Shown: positions 12,276-57,699 of the stretch, piece by piece
How the letters are laid out: every line of letters starts with the position of its first letter
Position numbering within the stretch: position 1 is the first letter of the stretch
DNA from: an uncultured Bacteroidota bacterium
Lineage (GTDB): Bacteria > Bacteroidota > Bacteroidia > Flavobacteriales > Flavobacteriaceae
Length of the DNA: 64,000 bases
Reading direction: 5' to 3'
Assembly (NCBI GenBank): GCA_902593165.1
Contig: CACJHI010000002.1
Coordinates: forward strand, 48,842 to 112,841
Program-made: the position numbers and the translations under genes
The notes under the pieces: generated by a model
Seen by the model: the letters and a program-made list of their open reading frames with translations, nothing else
Told to the model about the DNA's origin: nothing
Database searches by the model: none

Positions 12276-14251
12276 AATTTGATGTAAAAGGAATAGATAA
12301 AGATATTCTTATCAATTTATTTCAAAACATGTTGAAGTCTAGAATGATTGAAGAAAAAATGATCATTCTACTGAGACAAGGTAAAGTTTCAAAATGGTTT
12401 AGTGGAATTGGTCAAGAGGCTATATCAACTGGAGTTACAGAGGCTTTGGATATGGATGAGTATATTCTGCCAATGCATAGAAACCTTAGTGTATTTACAT
12501 CAAGAAAAATCCCATTAGATAGATTGTTTGCTCAATGGCAAGGAAAAAATGAAGGATTCACTAAAGGGAGAGATAGAAGCTTTCATTTTGGGACAAATGA
12601 ACACAAAATTGTTGGAATGATTTCTCATTTAGGACCTCAAATGGGAGTGGCTTGTGGAATTGCGCTATCAAATAAACTAAAAAATAATAATCAGGTTACG
12701 GCAGTTTTTACTGGTGATGGAGGAACAAGTCAAGGGGATTTCCATGAAGCTTTAAATTTAGCCTCAACTTGGAATCTGCCAGTAATATTTTGTATTGAAA
12801 ATAATGGGTATGGCCTAAGTACACCAGTAAATGAGCAATATGCAATTGAAAATCTCGCAGATAGAGGTGATTCATATGGAATTGAATCTCATATAATTGA
12901 TGGAAATAATATAATTGATGTTTACAGCTGTGTTAAATCAGTTGTTGAAAATATGAGAAAAGACTCAAAGCCTGTTTTAATTGAATTTAAGACATTTAGG
13001 ATGAAAGGTCATGAAGAGGCAAGTGGTCAAGCTTATATAGACAATAGTATAATAGAGGAGTGGGCTAAAAAAGATCCTATATCTCATTTTGAATCGTTTT
13101 TATTGAAGTCAAAATTTTTATCAAAGAAAGAAATTGATACTATTAAGTCCTCTACTTCTAAAGAAATTGATCAAAACTGGAGTTCTGCTAACTCATACAA
13201 AGAGGTTGACTTTAATATTGAAAATGAGTTAGGGGATGTATATAAAGAACATAATGAAGGAAAATCAGACCCAATAGATGAATCTTTAAGGGAAGTAAGG
13301 CTTGTAGATTCAATAAAGGAGGGTATCTATGAATCAATGGAACAACATGATAATCTTGTAATTATGGGGCAGGATATTGCCGAATATGGTGGTGTATTTA
13401 AAGTCACAGACGGTTTATTTGATAAATATGGAAAAAACAGAGTGTTGAATACGCCTTTATGTGAATCAGTAATATTATCATCTGCATATGGTTTAAGTGT
13501 AGGAGGCTATAAGTCCATCGTAGAGATGCAATTTGCAGACTTTGTTAGCTCAGGTTTTACTGCAGTAGTTAACCTTATAGCTAAGTCAAATTATAGATGG
13601 GCCCAAAACTCTGATATAGTAGTCAGAATGCCTTGTGGAGGAGGAGTAGGGGCAGGTCCATTTCATTCTCAAACAAATGAAGTTTGGTTTACTAAAGTTC
13701 CTGGTTTAAAGGTTGTATACCCATCTCATCCATATGAAGCAAAGGGCTTACTTAATGCATCTATTGATGATCCTAACCCTGTAATGTATTTTGAACATAA
13801 GTTTTTATACAGGACTGTATCTGAAGAAATACCATCATCTAGATACACATTAGAGCTAGGAAAAGGGAAAATTAGAAATATTGGATCAAAAGTGACTATT
13901 GTGAGTTATGGATTAGGTGTTCATTGGGCATTAGGTCTATTGGATAATTATAAAAATCAAGAAATTGAAATTATTGATTTAAATACTCTTGTTCCTTGGG
14001 ATAAAGAACTGGTTTTCAATTCTATAAAGAAGACAGGTAAAGTATTGCTTTTAGGTGAAGATACTCTTTTTAATAGCTATTTAGGAGAGATTTCAGCAGT
14101 AATTAGTGAAGAAATATTTGAACATCTAGATGCTCCTATTGTTAGAGTTGGATCTTTAGACACCCCAGTACCTTTTGCTAAAAATCTGGAAGAAGGATTT
14201 CAAGCAAGCTATAAGTTAAAAGACAAGTTAGAATATCTACTTAACTACTAA
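12272..14251 (+). CDS. Fused 2-oxoacid dehydrogenase E1 alpha + E1 beta
   Basis: TPP motif GDGGTSQGDFHEALN in the N-terminal half; E1 beta GQDIAEYGGVFKVTDGL...TPLCES in the C-terminal half. ATGA overlap with ung stop; ORF track start (12263, TTG) is probably too early. Confidence 0.93.
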   Translation: MKFDVKGIDKDILINLFQNMLKSRMIEEKMIILLRQGKVSKWFSGIGQEAISTGVTEALDMDEYILPMHRNLSVFTSRKIPLDRLFAQWQGKNEGFTKGRDRSFHFGTNEHKIVGMISHLGPQMGVACGIALSNKLKNNNQVTAVFTGDGGTSQGDFHEALNLASTWNLPVIFCIENNGYGLSTPVNEQYAIENLADRGDSYGIESHIIDGNNIIDVYSCVKSVVENMRKDSKPVLIEFKTFRMKGHEEASGQAYIDNSIIEEWAKKDPISHFESFLLKSKFLSKKEIDTIKSSTSKEIDQNWSSANSYKEVDFNIENELGDVYKEHNEGKSDPIDESLREVRLVDSIKEGIYESMEQHDNLVIMGQDIAEYGGVFKVTDGLFDKYGKNRVLNTPLCESVILSSAYGLSVGGYKSIVEMQFADFVSSGFTAVVNLIAKSNYRWAQNSDIVVRMPCGGGVGAGPFHSQTNEVWFTKVPGLKVVYPSHPYEAKGLLNASIDDPNPVMYFEHKFLYRTVSEEIPSSRYTLELGKGKIRNIGSKVTIVSYGLGVHWALGLLDNYKNQEIEIIDLNTLVPWDKELVFNSIKKTGKVLLLGEDTLFNSYLGEISAVISEEIFEHLDAPIVRVGSLDTPVPFAKNLEEGFQASYKLKDKLEYLLNY

Positions 14252-14709
14252 TGATGGATTATTCCAAATTAATTAATTCAATTCATTTACTTGATAAAGA
14301 TACTGATCCTAAATGGGGGAGAATGAACTCCTCAATGATGCTTAAACACTGTTCTGCCTTTATCGACGTATATTTAAACAAGACAAAACTTAACCCTTTG
14401 ATCTTTATTGTAGGATTTGTTTTTGGTATATTTCACAGACTCTATTTAAAGTATATAGTGAGATATAATGTAAAAAACTATATAAAAAACTTACCTACAC
14501 TCAAAGTTTTTAATACCTACCAATGTGAAAATCTTGATTTTGAATTTGAAAAAAATAAGTTGATAAGGGATTTAAAAGAAGTAGAATCCATCAATAAGAA
14601 TTACTTATTTAATAATTTTCACGGAATCGTACCCAACATGGCATTTAAAAAGGTTGTCTACTTTCATACATCATATCATTTATATCAATTTGATGTATAT
14701 AAAACCTAA
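14251..14709 (+). CDS. DUF1569 (DinB-like fold) protein, copy 1
   Basis: LLDKDTDPKWGRMNSSMMLKHCSAF...; aligns by eye with the ORF at 17969-18412. Confidence 0.7.
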   Translation: MMDYSKLINSIHLLDKDTDPKWGRMNSSMMLKHCSAFIDVYLNKTKLNPLIFIVGFVFGIFHRLYLKYIVRYNVKNYIKNLPTLKVFNTYQCENLDFEFEKNKLIRDLKEVESINKNYLFNNFHGIVPNMAFKKVVYFHTSYHLYQFDVYKT

Positions 14710-15149
14710 TTCTTCTTTGTTAGATTTTTATTTAAATCTTTTAGTGAATCATTAATCTCTGTTAGAAGCTTTATGTTTCTTGGTGTTGATACCTTATTAT
14801 TTCTAGGGTCTTCAGCTTGTATTTTTAATTTATTTAGAAACTTTATCACAATAAAAATTGTGAATGCTACAATCATAAAATCTATAAAAGTTTCAATAAA
14901 AAATCCATAGTTTATTGCAACTTCTTCATTAATTATATCACCAGAAGAGCTTATATCAGCTTGCCTTAGAATTATTTTTTTTGAATCTATATTCAACCCA
15001 TTAGAGAGCAGAGAGAGGGGAGGAAGCAATATCTGTTTAACTAATACATCAATTACAGAGTTAAAAGAAGCACCAATTATTATACCAATTGCCATTTCCA
15101 TCATGTTTCCTTTTACAGCAAACTCCTTGAATTCATTAAGTAATTTCAT
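14706..15149 (-). CDS. mscL: Large-conductance mechanosensitive channel
   Basis: MKLLNEFKEFAVKGNMMEMAIGIIIGASFNSVIDVLVKQILLPPL. Confidence 0.95.
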   Translation of the reverse strand: MKLLNEFKEFAVKGNMMEMAIGIIIGASFNSVIDVLVKQILLPPLSLLSNGLNIDSKKIILRQADISSSGDIINEEVAINYGFFIETFIDFMIVAFTIFIVIKFLNKLKIQAEDPRNNKVSTPRNIKLLTEINDSLKDLNKNLTKKN

Positions 15150-15179
15150 TTTTTTCTGTTAATTTAATAATTTAGTTAA

Positions 15180-15584
15180 ATCAAAAGAATTTTTTTTTAC
15201 ATAACGTTACTATTTGTAATAAGTTGCGCTAAGGAAGAATCCAATGCCTCAAATACATTTGTTTCACAGAATATGGATGCTGGGAAGAAAGCGATAGGTG
15301 CAATTGTAACATCTCCAATAACATCTACTTCAGCAGTAACACAGTATAAGTTAACAGTTGGTGCAAACGAAGGTGGAACCGTAAGTTTTGGAGAAACATC
15401 TCTTAGACGTAGGTCAGCTTTTTATATTTATCGTCCAGCTGGAACAGAAGTAACTGTAACTGCAGAGCCAAATGAGGGATACGAATTTTCTGGTTGGTCT
15501 AATGGGTGGATAGGAAATCCAATAACTTGGAAGCTAAACTCAAATGTTGGCTTTTCAGCAGAATTTAAAACTACAGATGATTAA
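15180..15584 (+). CDS. Small lipoprotein with one InlB-B/Listeria-Bacteroides-like repeat (array member 1); start codon uncertain
   Basis: Reading frame open from ATC at 15180 (in-frame TAA at 15177-15179): IKRIFFYITLLFVISCAKEES... = lipoprotein signal with lipobox; repeat domain YKLTVGANEGGTVSFGE...GTEVTVTAEPNEGYEFSGWSNGWIGNPITWKLNSNVGFSAEFKT. First ATG (15273) would lose the signal peptide. Confidence 0.7.
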   Translation: MKRIFFYITLLFVISCAKEESNASNTFVSQNMDAGKKAIGAIVTSPITSTSAVTQYKLTVGANEGGTVSFGETSLRRRSAFYIYRPAGTEVTVTAEPNEGYEFSGWSNGWIGNPITWKLNSNVGFSAEFKTTDD

Positions 15585-16011
15585 AAGACTTACATATATT
15601 TCGTTACTATTTATTCTTGGCTGTACTAAGGGAGAATTACCAGATTCAACTTATACTGGTAATGGTCTGGAACTTGAAGAAATTTATGATTTAACAGTTG
15701 ATACAACTCGTTTAGGTGCTACAGCTTGGGTCCCTGGTACGTATTCACACGATCCTCAAGCAAATAATCACCCCGGATATGGTTTTAATCCACCAGGATG
15801 GCTAAATTTAGAATACAATAAAACATATATATGGGGAGTGGGGTCTTGGGATGAATCTTTACCAGGTGGAACGGATGTGCTTCTTACTGCATTACCAGCT
15901 CTGGGAATGGAATTTCATGAGTGGTCTAATGGTGTAACAGAAAATCCAATATTATTTAAGATGAATTCAGATATAGACCTTACAGCAGTATTTAAATCCA
16001 TAACTGATTAA
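15577..16011 (+). CDS. Small lipoprotein with InlB-B-like repeat (array member 2)
   Basis: MIKRLTYISLLFILGCTKGELP signal + lipobox; C-terminal GMEFHEWSNGVTENPILFKMNSDIDLTAVFK. ATG overlaps the stop of member 1 (ATGATTAA). Confidence 0.78.
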   Translation: MIKRLTYISLLFILGCTKGELPDSTYTGNGLELEEIYDLTVDTTRLGATAWVPGTYSHDPQANNHPGYGFNPPGWLNLEYNKTYIWGVGSWDESLPGGTDVLLTALPALGMEFHEWSNGVTENPILFKMNSDIDLTAVFKSITD

Positions 16012-16348
16012 AAGACTTTTATACATATCATTACTATCCTTTCCTATTTTTATTGGATGTACAAAGGGTGATATGCCACCATCAGACTCTTCTGCTTCTA
16101 AACAACCAGAAAAAGTTGTGTTAACAGCCTATGCAAGTGAAGGTGGATGGATAGGTTCCCCAGGAACTCTTCTTACACGTAGGGATTTTTTTTGGTTAGT
16201 CAGACCACCCGGAACTGAAATAACTATTACTGCAGAACCAGCTGATGGGAATTACTTTGATAAGTGGTCAAATGGGTGGACAGCAAACCCTTTAACTTTT
16301 AAGTTAAATGTAGATATGGAAATTACAGCAGAATTTAAAACAGATTAA
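16004..16348 (+). CDS. Small lipoprotein with InlB-B-like repeat (array member 3), putative CTG start
   Basis: Frame open from CTG at 16004 (in-frame TAA at 16001-16003): (L)IKRLLYISLLSFPIFIGCTKGDMPPS; repeat GTEITITAEPADGNYFDKWSNGWTANPLTFKLNVDMEITAEFKTD. ORF-track ATG at 16073 lies after the lipobox. Confidence 0.7.
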   Translation: MIKRLLYISLLSFPIFIGCTKGDMPPSDSSASKQPEKVVLTAYASEGGWIGSPGTLLTRRDFFWLVRPPGTEITITAEPADGNYFDKWSNGWTANPLTFKLNVDMEITAEFKTD

Positions 16349-16374
16349 ATAGCTTGAATTTCTTAATTAGAGAT

Positions 16375-17949
16375 ATGAAAAAACTTTCTGTATACATAAG
16401 CTTATTGGTTATTCTTAGTTGTGCTAAAGATACCTCAGAAGACGACTCTTCAGTATATGTCTCACCACCCTCAAATACTATAAATACAGGATCACCTTCA
16501 ACAACAGTTACTCAGTATACATTGACAGTAAGTGCAGGAGAGGGGGGGAGTGTGTCTACTTCTGGAGGTACATATAATGATGGCACATCAATTAGTATTG
16601 TAGCTACTCCAAATGAAGGTTATGAATTTGTTGGATGGATTGGATCAGAGTCAACAAGTTCAAGTATAACTTTGACCATAAGCTCAAATGTTACAATAAG
16701 TGCAAATTTTCAAATTGATTGTAGCTATTGGCAAACAGATATTCCAGATTGGAGTCAGACATCATATGAACTTTTTGATATATACTACCCAGAAAATTAT
16801 CAGGATTTAGGCTCACTATTAAACAACCAATGGGGAGGTGAATCTGGAGAATATGGTCTTAATGTTATAAGTGTAGACTATAATAATGATGGCTATATGG
16901 ATATAATTGGTTCCTATAATGATTATTCAAATTTTGTTGATTATCCCAGTGACTATTATGGATATGAAAGAAAACAACTAATAAGATTTTACAAAGGTGG
17001 TTGTGGAGGTAATTTTGAAGTTGATGAATTAAATGATAGTAAATTTCTTGGATTGGTTCATGGAAGAAAGATTCTCTTAGGTGACTTTAATAATGATGAC
17101 TATGTAGATCTTTTTCTTCTTGGTCACGGGTATGATAAGCAGCCATTTAATGGAGAGTTCAACAAGGCATTAATGAGTAATGGAGATGGGAGTTTTTCGG
17201 ATGTTGACTATCAATCTTTTGAATCTTTCTATCATGGAGGTGCTTCTGGAGATATTGATAATGACGGTGACCTAGATATTGTAGCCGTTGATGGTGGGCG
17301 AGGAAAATCACTCATATATCAAAATTTAAATGGTCAACTTGAACCAAATGAAACTCTTATTGATCAAGACCTTATGAATCAAATGTACAATGCGGAGCTT
17401 TTTGATATCAATAATGATGGTTTTATTGATCTAATTGCAGGTGGACATGACTGGTCATGGGGTCAGAATCCAGAATGTGAATGGTGGTATTGTAATACTT
17501 ATGATAATGCACCAGTAATTATATATGGCGATGGAGTTGATTTTATAAATAATGAGTTTCAGAGATTGCCTACCTCAGCTATTGATAAACAAGGTATCGT
17601 TACTAATTTTGAGTTTTTTGATTTTAATAATGATGGTCAGGTTGAAATTATAATAACTAGAACAGGAGATAACATGAATGAAGAACCAGGACTAGCTTGG
17701 GATCAAACTAACTTTTACAACGATTGGTCCATACAAATTCTAAAGCTTGACGGAGAAACCTATAGAGATGCAACTTCAAATTTCATTGATATATATTCTG
17801 GTAACGAACAGTGGATAAGATTTACTAAAATAAAAGATATTGATGATGATGGGACTCTTGAAATGTATAACACATCTAATCCGTATAGTGATCAAGATAA
17901 TTACTTGGAATGGGAGATTTCATCAAATATGTTAATAAAGATTAATTAG
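16375..17949 (+). CDS. Large lipoprotein: InlB-B-like repeat plus FG-GAP/VCBS-type repeats (array member 4)
   Basis: MKKLSVYISLLVILSCAKDTSEDD lipobox; YTLTVSAGEGGSVSTSGGTYNDGTSISIVATPNEGYEFVGWIGSE...; then repeated VDYNNDGYMDIIG, GDFNNDDYVDLFLLG, GDIDNDGDLDIVAVDGG, FDINNDGFIDLIAGG, FDFNNDGQVEIIIT. ORF track start (16354, TTG) is probably too early. Confidence 0.85.
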   Translation: MKKLSVYISLLVILSCAKDTSEDDSSVYVSPPSNTINTGSPSTTVTQYTLTVSAGEGGSVSTSGGTYNDGTSISIVATPNEGYEFVGWIGSESTSSSITLTISSNVTISANFQIDCSYWQTDIPDWSQTSYELFDIYYPENYQDLGSLLNNQWGGESGEYGLNVISVDYNNDGYMDIIGSYNDYSNFVDYPSDYYGYERKQLIRFYKGGCGGNFEVDELNDSKFLGLVHGRKILLGDFNNDDYVDLFLLGHGYDKQPFNGEFNKALMSNGDGSFSDVDYQSFESFYHGGASGDIDNDGDLDIVAVDGGRGKSLIYQNLNGQLEPNETLIDQDLMNQMYNAELFDINNDGFIDLIAGGHDWSWGQNPECEWWYCNTYDNAPVIIYGDGVDFINNEFQRLPTSAIDKQGIVTNFEFFDFNNDGQVEIIITRTGDNMNEEPGLAWDQTNFYNDWSIQILKLDGETYRDATSNFIDIYSGNEQWIRFTKIKDIDDDGTLEMYNTSNPYSDQDNYLEWEISSNMLIKIN

Positions 17950-17968: not shown

Positions 17969-18412
17969 ATGCAAATAGATAAGTTAATAAAGGCAATAAA
18001 TAAGCTTAATAAAGATTCAAAGCCTAAATGGGGGATAATGAATTCCTCACAGATGCTATGGCATTGTAATAAATTTATAATATTCTATCTTAATGAAAAA
18101 AAATATTCTCCAAACTATATGACTTATATTTTTGGTTCTCTACATTTATTTTTTCTCAGATATATATTGAGGTGGAACTATAAAAAATATCCAAAAAATA
18201 CATCAACATTTAAATTTTTTGATGCAAAGAGATCAAGCAATCTAATTTTTGAAGATGAACAAAAAAAACTTATTGAAAGCTTAAAAAAGGTTAATAGTTA
18301 TAAAGAAAAATATTTAATTAATACATTCCATGGTAAGGTTGATAATTGGACATTAAAAGAAGTAGTCAGTGGACATACAGCATTTCACCTTAATCAATTC
18401 GGGGTTTATTAA
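17969..18412 (+). CDS. DUF1569 (DinB-like fold) protein, copy 2
   Basis: LNKDSKPKWGIMNSSQMLWHCNKFIIFYLNEKKYSP...; paralog of 14251-14709. Confidence 0.7.
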   Translation: MQIDKLIKAINKLNKDSKPKWGIMNSSQMLWHCNKFIIFYLNEKKYSPNYMTYIFGSLHLFFLRYILRWNYKKYPKNTSTFKFFDAKRSSNLIFEDEQKKLIESLKKVNSYKEKYLINTFHGKVDNWTLKEVVSGHTAFHLNQFGVY

Positions 18413-18477: not shown

Positions 18478-18792
18478 ATGATTATATCTACTACCCCTAA
18501 TATTGAAGGAAAACAAGTTTCACAAGTTCTTGGAATAGCTCGTGGAAATACTGTAAGATCAAGAAATGTAGCTAGAGACATCTTTGCTACTTTGAAGAAT
18601 GTTGTTGGTGGAGAAATTGAAGAATACACAAAACTACAAGCACAATCTAGAGAACAAGCGATTAGTAGAATGAAAGATGATGCGAAATCTTTAGGAGCTG
18701 ATGCAATTATTAATGTAAGAATTACTACATCAATGATTATGCAAGGATGCTCTGAGATTATGGCTTATGGAACAGCAGTAAAACTTTCATAG
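18478..18792 (+). CDS. YbjQ-family (heavy-metal-binding / DUF74) protein
   Basis: STTPNIEGKQVSQVLGIARGNTVRSRNVARDI...SLGADAIINVRITTSMIMQGCSEIMAYGTAV. Confidence 0.93.
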   Translation: MIISTTPNIEGKQVSQVLGIARGNTVRSRNVARDIFATLKNVVGGEIEEYTKLQAQSREQAISRMKDDAKSLGADAIINVRITTSMIMQGCSEIMAYGTAVKLS

Positions 18793-56201: not shown

Positions 56202-56262
56202 ATGACTAATTTACAAAACCTAATTAACTTTCGATTTCAACAAATAACTCTAACTTTATAGC

Positions 56263-56463
56263 ATGGAATACTTTTGGAAAATAATTGGAACATTGAGTAT
56301 TTTACTTGTCTTTTTTGGCAGCATGTATAATCTGTTTGCAGCTGAAGAATATGCCAAAAAGAAACTTAACTATATTCCTGCTATATTGAGATATATAGCA
56401 TATGGTATAGGAATCTTTTGTTCAGGATACGTAATAAATCTAATTACCAATAGCTTTACATAA
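56263..56463 (+). CDS. Small membrane protein (66 aa)
   Basis: MEYFWKIIGTLSILLVFFGSMYNLFAAEEYAKKKLNYIPAILRYIAYGIGIFCSGYVINLITNSFT. Confidence 0.55.
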   Translation: MEYFWKIIGTLSILLVFFGSMYNLFAAEEYAKKKLNYIPAILRYIAYGIGIFCSGYVINLITNSFT

Positions 56464-56559
56464 TATTAGGGAGACTTAATTATTTATTTAATCTAAAGTG
56501 AGGTAAACTATGATTAAACTATTAGATTCAATTAGTAAAAAAATTGATTGAGAAGATAT

Positions 56560-56751
56560 CTAATTCTTTATTTTAGGAATTAAGTATTCTAATACAAAAA
56601 AAACCAAACAGCATATACCTACTGCTATAAGATATCCACTATCATCAGTTGTATCAATAAAACTATCAAATATCATTGATGATAGTACTAATCCAGTAAA
56701 TAGTATAAAATAAAAGAGGGCTTTTTTTATTAAGCTTTCAAAAAATTTCAT
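56560..56751 (-). CDS. Two-TM small membrane protein (63 aa)
   Basis: MKFFESLIKKALFYFILFTGLVLSSMIFDSFIDTTDDSGYLIAVGICCLVFFVLEYLIPKIKN. Confidence 0.55.
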   Translation of the reverse strand: MKFFESLIKKALFYFILFTGLVLSSMIFDSFIDTTDDSGYLIAVGICCLVFFVLEYLIPKIKN

Positions 56752-56822
56752 TTTTAAATATACTTATATAGTTTAACTTTAATGATAGAAAAGAGATGGC
56801 TTGAATTTTCTATATTAGATTT

Positions 56823-57059
56823 ATGAAAATTATCCAAAATTTTATAAATCAAAAAATTTACGTATTTATTCCATTATGGGTATTTGGTTTTTTTGTCCTA
56901 TTTTCTTTTGACTTATTTATAGAGGGTGTTGTCTTTGAATGGTTAAATTGGAACGGAACAACAAAAAATGATTGGTTTTTTATTTTATGGTGGGGATTTA
57001 ATTTTCTATGGTTTTGTTTCGGGATTATTAATATATATTTCAAACTTAAAAAGAAATAG
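56823..57059 (+). CDS. Small membrane protein (78 aa)
   Basis: MKIIQNFINQKIYVFIPLWVFGFFVLFSFDLFIEGVVFEWLNWNGTTKNDWFFILWWGFNFLWFCFGIINIYFKLKKK. Confidence 0.6.
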   Translation: MKIIQNFINQKIYVFIPLWVFGFFVLFSFDLFIEGVVFEWLNWNGTTKNDWFFILWWGFNFLWFCFGIINIYFKLKKK

Positions 57060-57075
57060 ATTAAACCTCCATTAA

Positions 57076-57699
57076 TTATGGTTTAGTTTTAACCGAATTA
57101 GGTGTCACAACTCCTGCTGAGATAACTAATTTGAATGCCTCTTCAACACTAATATCAAGTTCTAATGCATCTTTTTTGGGTATTAAGACAAAAAAACCTG
57201 AAGTTGGATTAGGAGTAGTTGGTACAAAAAGATTTATAATTTCTTCACCAATAACAGATTCAGCCTGACCTCTATAATCTCCGGATTGAAATGCAATTAC
57301 CCAAATCCCCTTATTTGGATATTGAATTAAATATGCCTTTTTAAAACTTTGAGATGAAGTATTTAATACTGTATCAGAAACTTTTTTTAGTATGTTGTAT
57401 ATGTTTCGAAAACCTGGAATTCTATTAAGTAGTTTTTCCCAAAGCGCTACTAATCTTCGTCCTAATATATTAGTAACCAATACACCTGTTATAAGTATAA
57501 TTATGAATAACAGGATAATTCCAGAACCTGGTATGCTTGTATTCAAATTAAAAATAGCTTCTGGTAAATATTCTTGCGGAACAAGACTATTTATAAACTC
57601 TAAGAAGAACTTAATTACAATAACTGTAAGAATTAAAGGGATCCAAAAAAGAAGGCCTGAAATAAGGTAATTTCTTAATCGTGTCAATATTTTTAACAT
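57076..57699 (-). CDS. DUF502-family membrane protein
   Basis: LRNYLISGLLFWIPLILTVIVIKFFLEFINSLVP; GRRLVALWEKLLNRIPGFRNIYNILKKVSDTV; FVPTTPNPTSGFFVLIP. Confidence 0.93.
   Translation of the reverse strand: MLKILTRLRNYLISGLLFWIPLILTVIVIKFFLEFINSLVPQEYLPEAIFNLNTSIPGSGIILLFIIILITGVLVTNILGRRLVALWEKLLNRIPGFRNIYNILKKVSDTVLNTSSQSFKKAYLIQYPNKGIWVIAFQSGDYRGQAESVIGEEIINLFVPTTPNPTSGFFVLIPKKDALELDISVEEAFKLVISAGVVTPNSVKTKP

Follow-up and report, generated by a model that had tools for sequence, protein, structure and literature searches.

A four-gene lipoprotein array between mscL and a ybjQ-type gene in an uncultured flavobacterium owes its diversity to old paralogs which, at a single locus, have been retained, exchanged or lost and have passed from one species to another. 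We judge it most likely, though only somewhat better than an even bet, that these genes encode surface modules that can be exchanged and that act in binding or as decoys, at a small replacement-type locus. The array lies in a window of 64,000 nucleotides (the whole stretch of DNA that was analysed) from a 1.23-Mb draft genome of 28 contigs that is ~75% complete (G000; other G numbers denote relatives). Among named genomes, the closest relatives are uncultured Bacteroidetes/Flavobacteriales sequenced from single cells or metagenomes (AG-325-M19, AG-447-K23, AG-893-B06 and AG-447-K04), which we take to be marine, going by their isolate names.

All four genes are on the plus strand, and each encodes a lipobox cysteine after a short hydrophobic signal. 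The first (g1, 15180..15584) encodes a 134-codon lipoprotein with the signal IKRIFFYITLLFVISC, followed by AKEES, and one PF18998 domain; its probable start is the ATC at 15180. The second (g2, 15577..16011) starts at ATG and encodes a 144-aa lipoprotein whose PF18998 domain carries an insert of ~30 aa. The third (g3, 16004..16348) encodes a 114-codon PF18998 lipoprotein with a putative CTG start at 16004, and the fourth (g4, 16375..17949) a 524-aa lipoprotein in which one canonical PF18998 domain (residues 48-114) precedes FG-GAP repeats. Thus, a sequence-only reading that had listed four consecutive plus-strand lipoprotein genes was right in their number, strand, signals and sizes (134, 144, 114 and 524 codons); it had overlooked the ATC start of the first member and the CTG start of the third. 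The g1/g2 and g2/g3 overlaps are 8 nt each, with the opening codons of the downstream gene containing the TAA of its predecessor ([AC]TGATTAAAAGACTT). g4 has a leader of its own and forms a separate unit.

On the left, a 30-nt gap (15150..15179) separates g1 from the divergent start of mscL (14706..15149, minus strand; PF01741). This gap is AT-rich, conserved and TAATAAATTTAAC-like, and can be aligned in relatives where mscL still adjoins the array. In the corresponding gap of G023 (L026:2235-2270), ATGTAA and a tiny frame (ATG...TAA) lie 5' of g1; these are not conserved in G000. On the right, the array is bounded by a gene encoding a small protein with no Pfam match (17969..18412, plus strand), beyond which the ybjQ-type gene (18478..18792, plus strand; PF01906, E 3e-40) serves as the right-hand landmark of the variable interval. 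A left-hand paralog of the small gene (14251..14709, plus strand), also with no Pfam match, encodes a protein with ~49-50% identity to relatives of the right-hand copy, and the two paralogous genes enclose mscL and the array. The right-hand copy is absent at this place in G014 and several other genomes.

PF18998, the divergent InlB B-repeat (Flg_new_2), is common in Bacteroidota surface proteins and is ordinarily a repeat within large proteins. In a Pfam profile search, all four proteins exceed its curated cut-off of 23.6 bits (g1 37.0, g2 31.2, g3 29.5 and g4 70.5), with matches covering model positions 1-71 of 73 in g1 and g4, 21-72 in g2 and 21-71 in g3. The earlier description of mutually similar, InlB-like small lipoproteins in tandem, presumably at the cell surface, is supported. 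Four of the five PF18998 matches in the host genome fall in the array. g4 additionally encodes FG-GAP repeats above cut-off (PF13517, FG-GAP_3, 65.2 bits; PF01839, 23.8 bits). The Listeria InlB B repeat itself (PF09479) gave no match to g1-g3, and its match to g4 (24.1 bits, E 4e-5) is below the cut-off of 27 bits. The predicted model of g1 has seven strands, and its residues 51-134 form an all-beta core modelled with confidence. No solved structure matched it below E 0.02 in Foldseek; the top matches, which include pilin-type and adhesin-type beta domains (E 0.02-0.2), are not significant and were set aside as evidence, and InlB was not among the matches listed. A search by sequence for solved relatives returned a single irrelevant match (E 0.18), and the AlphaFold2 model of g4, based on an alignment of six sequences, is poor (mean pLDDT 45.7). 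A literature search on InlB repeats in Bacteroidetes found nothing relevant. The adhesive or ligand-binding role that the sequence-only reading suggested for the array proteins would be plausible. In G004, at the end of a contig (L030:1800-2273), a PF18998 domain is fused to a stretch that by eye looks cupredoxin-like.

In Capnocytophaga, a member of the same family, the optimal signal for lipoprotein export to the surface is C-X-K-(D/E)2-X (PMC5080379). The array proteins resemble such lipoproteins in having Cys-x-Lys-(Asp/Glu) after the lipobox; the fit is exact only in g1 (CAKEES) and loose in g2 and g3 (CTKGE and CTKGD) and g4 (CAKDT), which have lysine at +3 plus an acidic residue at +4 or +5 but differ from the Capnocytophaga signal in having Gly or Thr at one acidic position. 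Across the genus loci, lysine at +3 occurs in 39 of 40 entries for PF18998 or FG-GAP lipoproteins (a few genes, lying in several loci, are counted more than once) versus 8 of 33 other lipobox ORFs, some of which themselves belong to the PF18998/FG-GAP class or are spurious. Likewise, 40/40 of the former and 14/33 of the latter combine a polar residue or lysine at +3 with an acidic residue somewhere in +4 to +6. Since the signal is near-universal in this class, surface display of the array lipoproteins is likely.

The array did not arise by recent tandem duplication. g1 has 79-90% identity to its orthologs (90% in G023, 79% in G019) and 35-48% to its paralogs; the other three genes of the array described here are 37-48% identical to it. 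In an IQ-TREE phylogeny, g2 (98/98), g3 (95/93) and g4 (100/100) form clades across species; the g1 sequences are adjacent, but their grouping is weak and they form no single supported clade. Because members group with their sister-species counterparts, and orthologs are far closer than paralogs, the paralogs predate the species split, and the recent local duplication proposed in the sequence-only reading is not supported. Internal repeats of 137 nt with low identity (68-72%) reflect homology, yet are too diverged to prove recent recombination within the array. Neither are the genes fragments of one gene in relatives: each carries a signal of its own and a complete or partial domain, and several species keep the frames open, as the earlier view of separate small genes implied.

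The mscL-ybjQ interval is a turnover site. We surveyed 25 genomes of the genus using mscL and ybjQ as landmarks. An array is present in several relatives, but its content varies. That of G023 consists of five small lipoprotein genes and lacks an FG-GAP gene, those of G019 and G022 each combine two small genes with a large one, and that of G009 is a single large gene. In G014 the assembly breaks within the array, with g1 to g4 kept across two contigs. The array has decayed in G006, where the g1 signal can still be read alongside broken parts of a gene resembling g2, and is absent from G015 and G008, where a short stretch joins sequence like the start of g1 to sequence like the end of the array (in G015 it reads IKKFFNSVLFKD*); these remnants look like deletion scars. 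The same leader precedes the fourth gene in G000 and G023, but the fourth genes differ. Among the loci inspected, tandem single-domain PF18998 members were encountered in only part of this genus.

Further lipoprotein genes were seen nearby. In G020, an FG-GAP lipoprotein gene (L034:2177-3769) follows what appear to be the final codons and stop (TAA) of a small member that has disappeared. More FG-GAP lipoprotein genes flank ybjQ on both sides and on both strands (L029 in G010; L026:5171-6682 in G023), and thus the variable zone reaches toward the SPFH gene. Another family of small PF18998-type lipoproteins (FNAAACPA...), with TTG starts, occurs in G023 (L031:1939-2340) and G014 (L032:2446-2820). 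In G014 its gene sits between a small lipoprotein gene and the counterpart of 57076-57699 of the window; the family was not detected in the matching gap of the window (56202-57075).

Members of the array have moved between species, based on low dS inside the array versus high dS in its flanks. Relative to G020, dS is 1.2-2.6 in the BCKDH, ybjQ, SPFH and SDR genes versus 0.20 and 0.46 in the N-terminal and FG-GAP parts of g4, a large contrast even though dS of small genes is noisy. Relative to G019, dS is 1.3-1.5 in BCKDH and SPFH versus 0.41 in g1, 0.50 in the N-terminal part of g4 and 0.32 in its C-terminal part. Relative to G014, dS of g3 is 0.04 and that of the flanking BCKDH gene 0.23. dN/dS is ~0.5 in g2 and g3 and 0.34 in the mature part of g1; with values below 1 throughout, protein change is faster but positive selection is not demonstrated. 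A search of PHROGs gave no match. We rejected a phage origin, for which the lone candidate was a weak match on a viral contig (L133); its 1155-codon frame lacks a lipoprotein signal and is not a counterpart.

g1 has no ATG, GTG or TTG ahead of its signal peptide; the frame opens with ATC AAA AGA after an in-frame TAA, with 30 nt between this start codon and the divergent start of mscL. G014, G023, G019 and G022 have the same ATC, so that in five genomes the gene begins ATC AAA AGR, and the frame is open in all five and complete in four. The signal (codons 1-19) has a dN/dS of 0.08, and, within the first 20 codons, 11 of the 16 columns that vary are third positions (p = 0.004 versus one third), statistics that come from five related sequences and are indicative only. 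Because the signal is under purifying selection despite the missing ATG, GTG or TTG, the simplest reading is that g1 is probably translated from a non-AUG codon. g3 likewise has no ATG, GTG or TTG before its signal peptide and has CTG in G000, G014 and G023, from which it is presumably translated, although the region varies too little among these three genomes to test for selection. Coupling to the preceding stop may help its initiation. The FG-GAP gene of G020 opens at ATT. In one scan of CxK lipoproteins, 26 of 33 have an ordinary start and all seven exceptions are array-type genes; the scan missed g3 of the window, an eighth exception.

infC, which encodes translation factor IF3, elsewhere starts at AUU. 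In the same genome (L132, contig C18 near 6594) it has no ATG, GTG or TTG, with an apparent start at ATA GCA ATA AGA, and g1 resembles it in having a conserved ATH start. We know of no surface lipoprotein with a non-AUG start. Conserved non-AUG initiation (AUC in g1, CUG in g3, AUU in a relative's g4) might set the expression of the surface modules, leaving them swappable with a dose that is low or tied to IF3; we consider this rather doubtful. Start codons in or beside the preceding stop would allow modules to be swapped with the dose held low, and the idea of an IF3-tied dose arises because infC of this genome also apparently lacks a canonical start. A link between the array starts and the IF3 level is speculation.

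We propose that this uncultured marine flavobacterial genus has, in the array, a small surface locus of the replacement type. Its genes would each encode an outer-membrane lipoprotein that is directed to the cell surface by its Cys-x-Lys-acidic N-terminus. The products of g1-g3 would display one divergent InlB-type beta module there, and that of g4 such a module carried by a probable FG-GAP propeller. These modules would be interchangeable exposed binding or decoy surfaces. Recombination at the mscL-ybjQ site would add them, remove them and exchange them between species, which could alter cell adhesion and recognition by phages or grazers. We infer the binding or decoy role and the selective agent; PHROGs and viral contigs provided no phage or grazer link.

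Alternatively, g1-g3 could be stable accessory modules that either join the FG-GAP protein g4 in an assembly or help it, as an attachment kit for one kind of particle, polysaccharide or host surface, with variation reflecting niche rather than enemies. The co-directional order ending in a large FG-GAP gene (G000, G014, G019 and G022) and the purifying selection on g1-g3 are consistent with this possibility, which we regard as clearly less probable because small and large genes also occur apart, as in G023 and G009, and g4 has its own leader (G000 and G014) and its own transfer history. A periplasm-facing location, with a structural or stress role and a chance proximity to mscL and ybjQ, would suit the exact export signal being limited to g1. 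However, the Lys+3/acidic motif is near-universal in this class but far less frequent among the remaining lipoproteins of these genomes, and rapid turnover and transfer are atypical of structural periplasmic proteins, which makes this location very unlikely.

It is also unlikely, if a little less so, that the array is a set of remnants of old lipoprotein genes, in which g1 and g3 have been deprived of their start codons and undergo decay like that in G006. The missing ordinary starts, the plain decay in G006 and the scar-like remnants in G015 and G008 would fit, but the ATC common to five genomes and the CTG common to three, together with open g1 frames, do not. The codon statistics of the g1 signal (low dN/dS, third-position excess) disfavour a pseudogene.

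Streamlined ocean bacteria retain few dispensable genes, and hence a site where surface lipoproteins are gained, lost and traded between species suggests that the cell surface is under strong pressure. Being short, the array lends itself to testing. The conserved ATC and CTG starts also matter for annotation, since standard gene callers can clip the signal peptide, so that the proteins look cytoplasmic. In the window, a plain ORF caller begins g1 and g3 after their signal peptides (at 15273 and 16073), and similar surface proteins may be missed elsewhere.

g1-g4 resemble other PF18998 proteins in scoring above the cut-off and in their GYxFxxWSNG core. Unlike the usual members of the family, g1-g3 each encode a lipoprotein of 114-144 codons with only one domain, and the N-terminal part is longer. 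A binding patch has been proposed on strand beta2 of the Listeria InlB B repeat (PF09479; PMC8900821). By its sub-threshold PF09479 match, g4 would be a distant relative of that repeat, g1-g3 being unmatched, and the activation of MET by Listeria InlB is not transferable to the array proteins. Replacement flexible genomic islands of aquatic bacteria encode exposed structures and are exchanged by homologous recombination, thought to be driven by phages (PMC4033161). In contrast to these large polysaccharide or appendage islands, the array spans ~3 kb and few genes. It resembles them in occupying a fixed site with the same kind of exposed product encoded by different genes, in its variable content at that one site, and in exchange between lineages, as indicated by low dS inside and high dS outside (G020 and G019).
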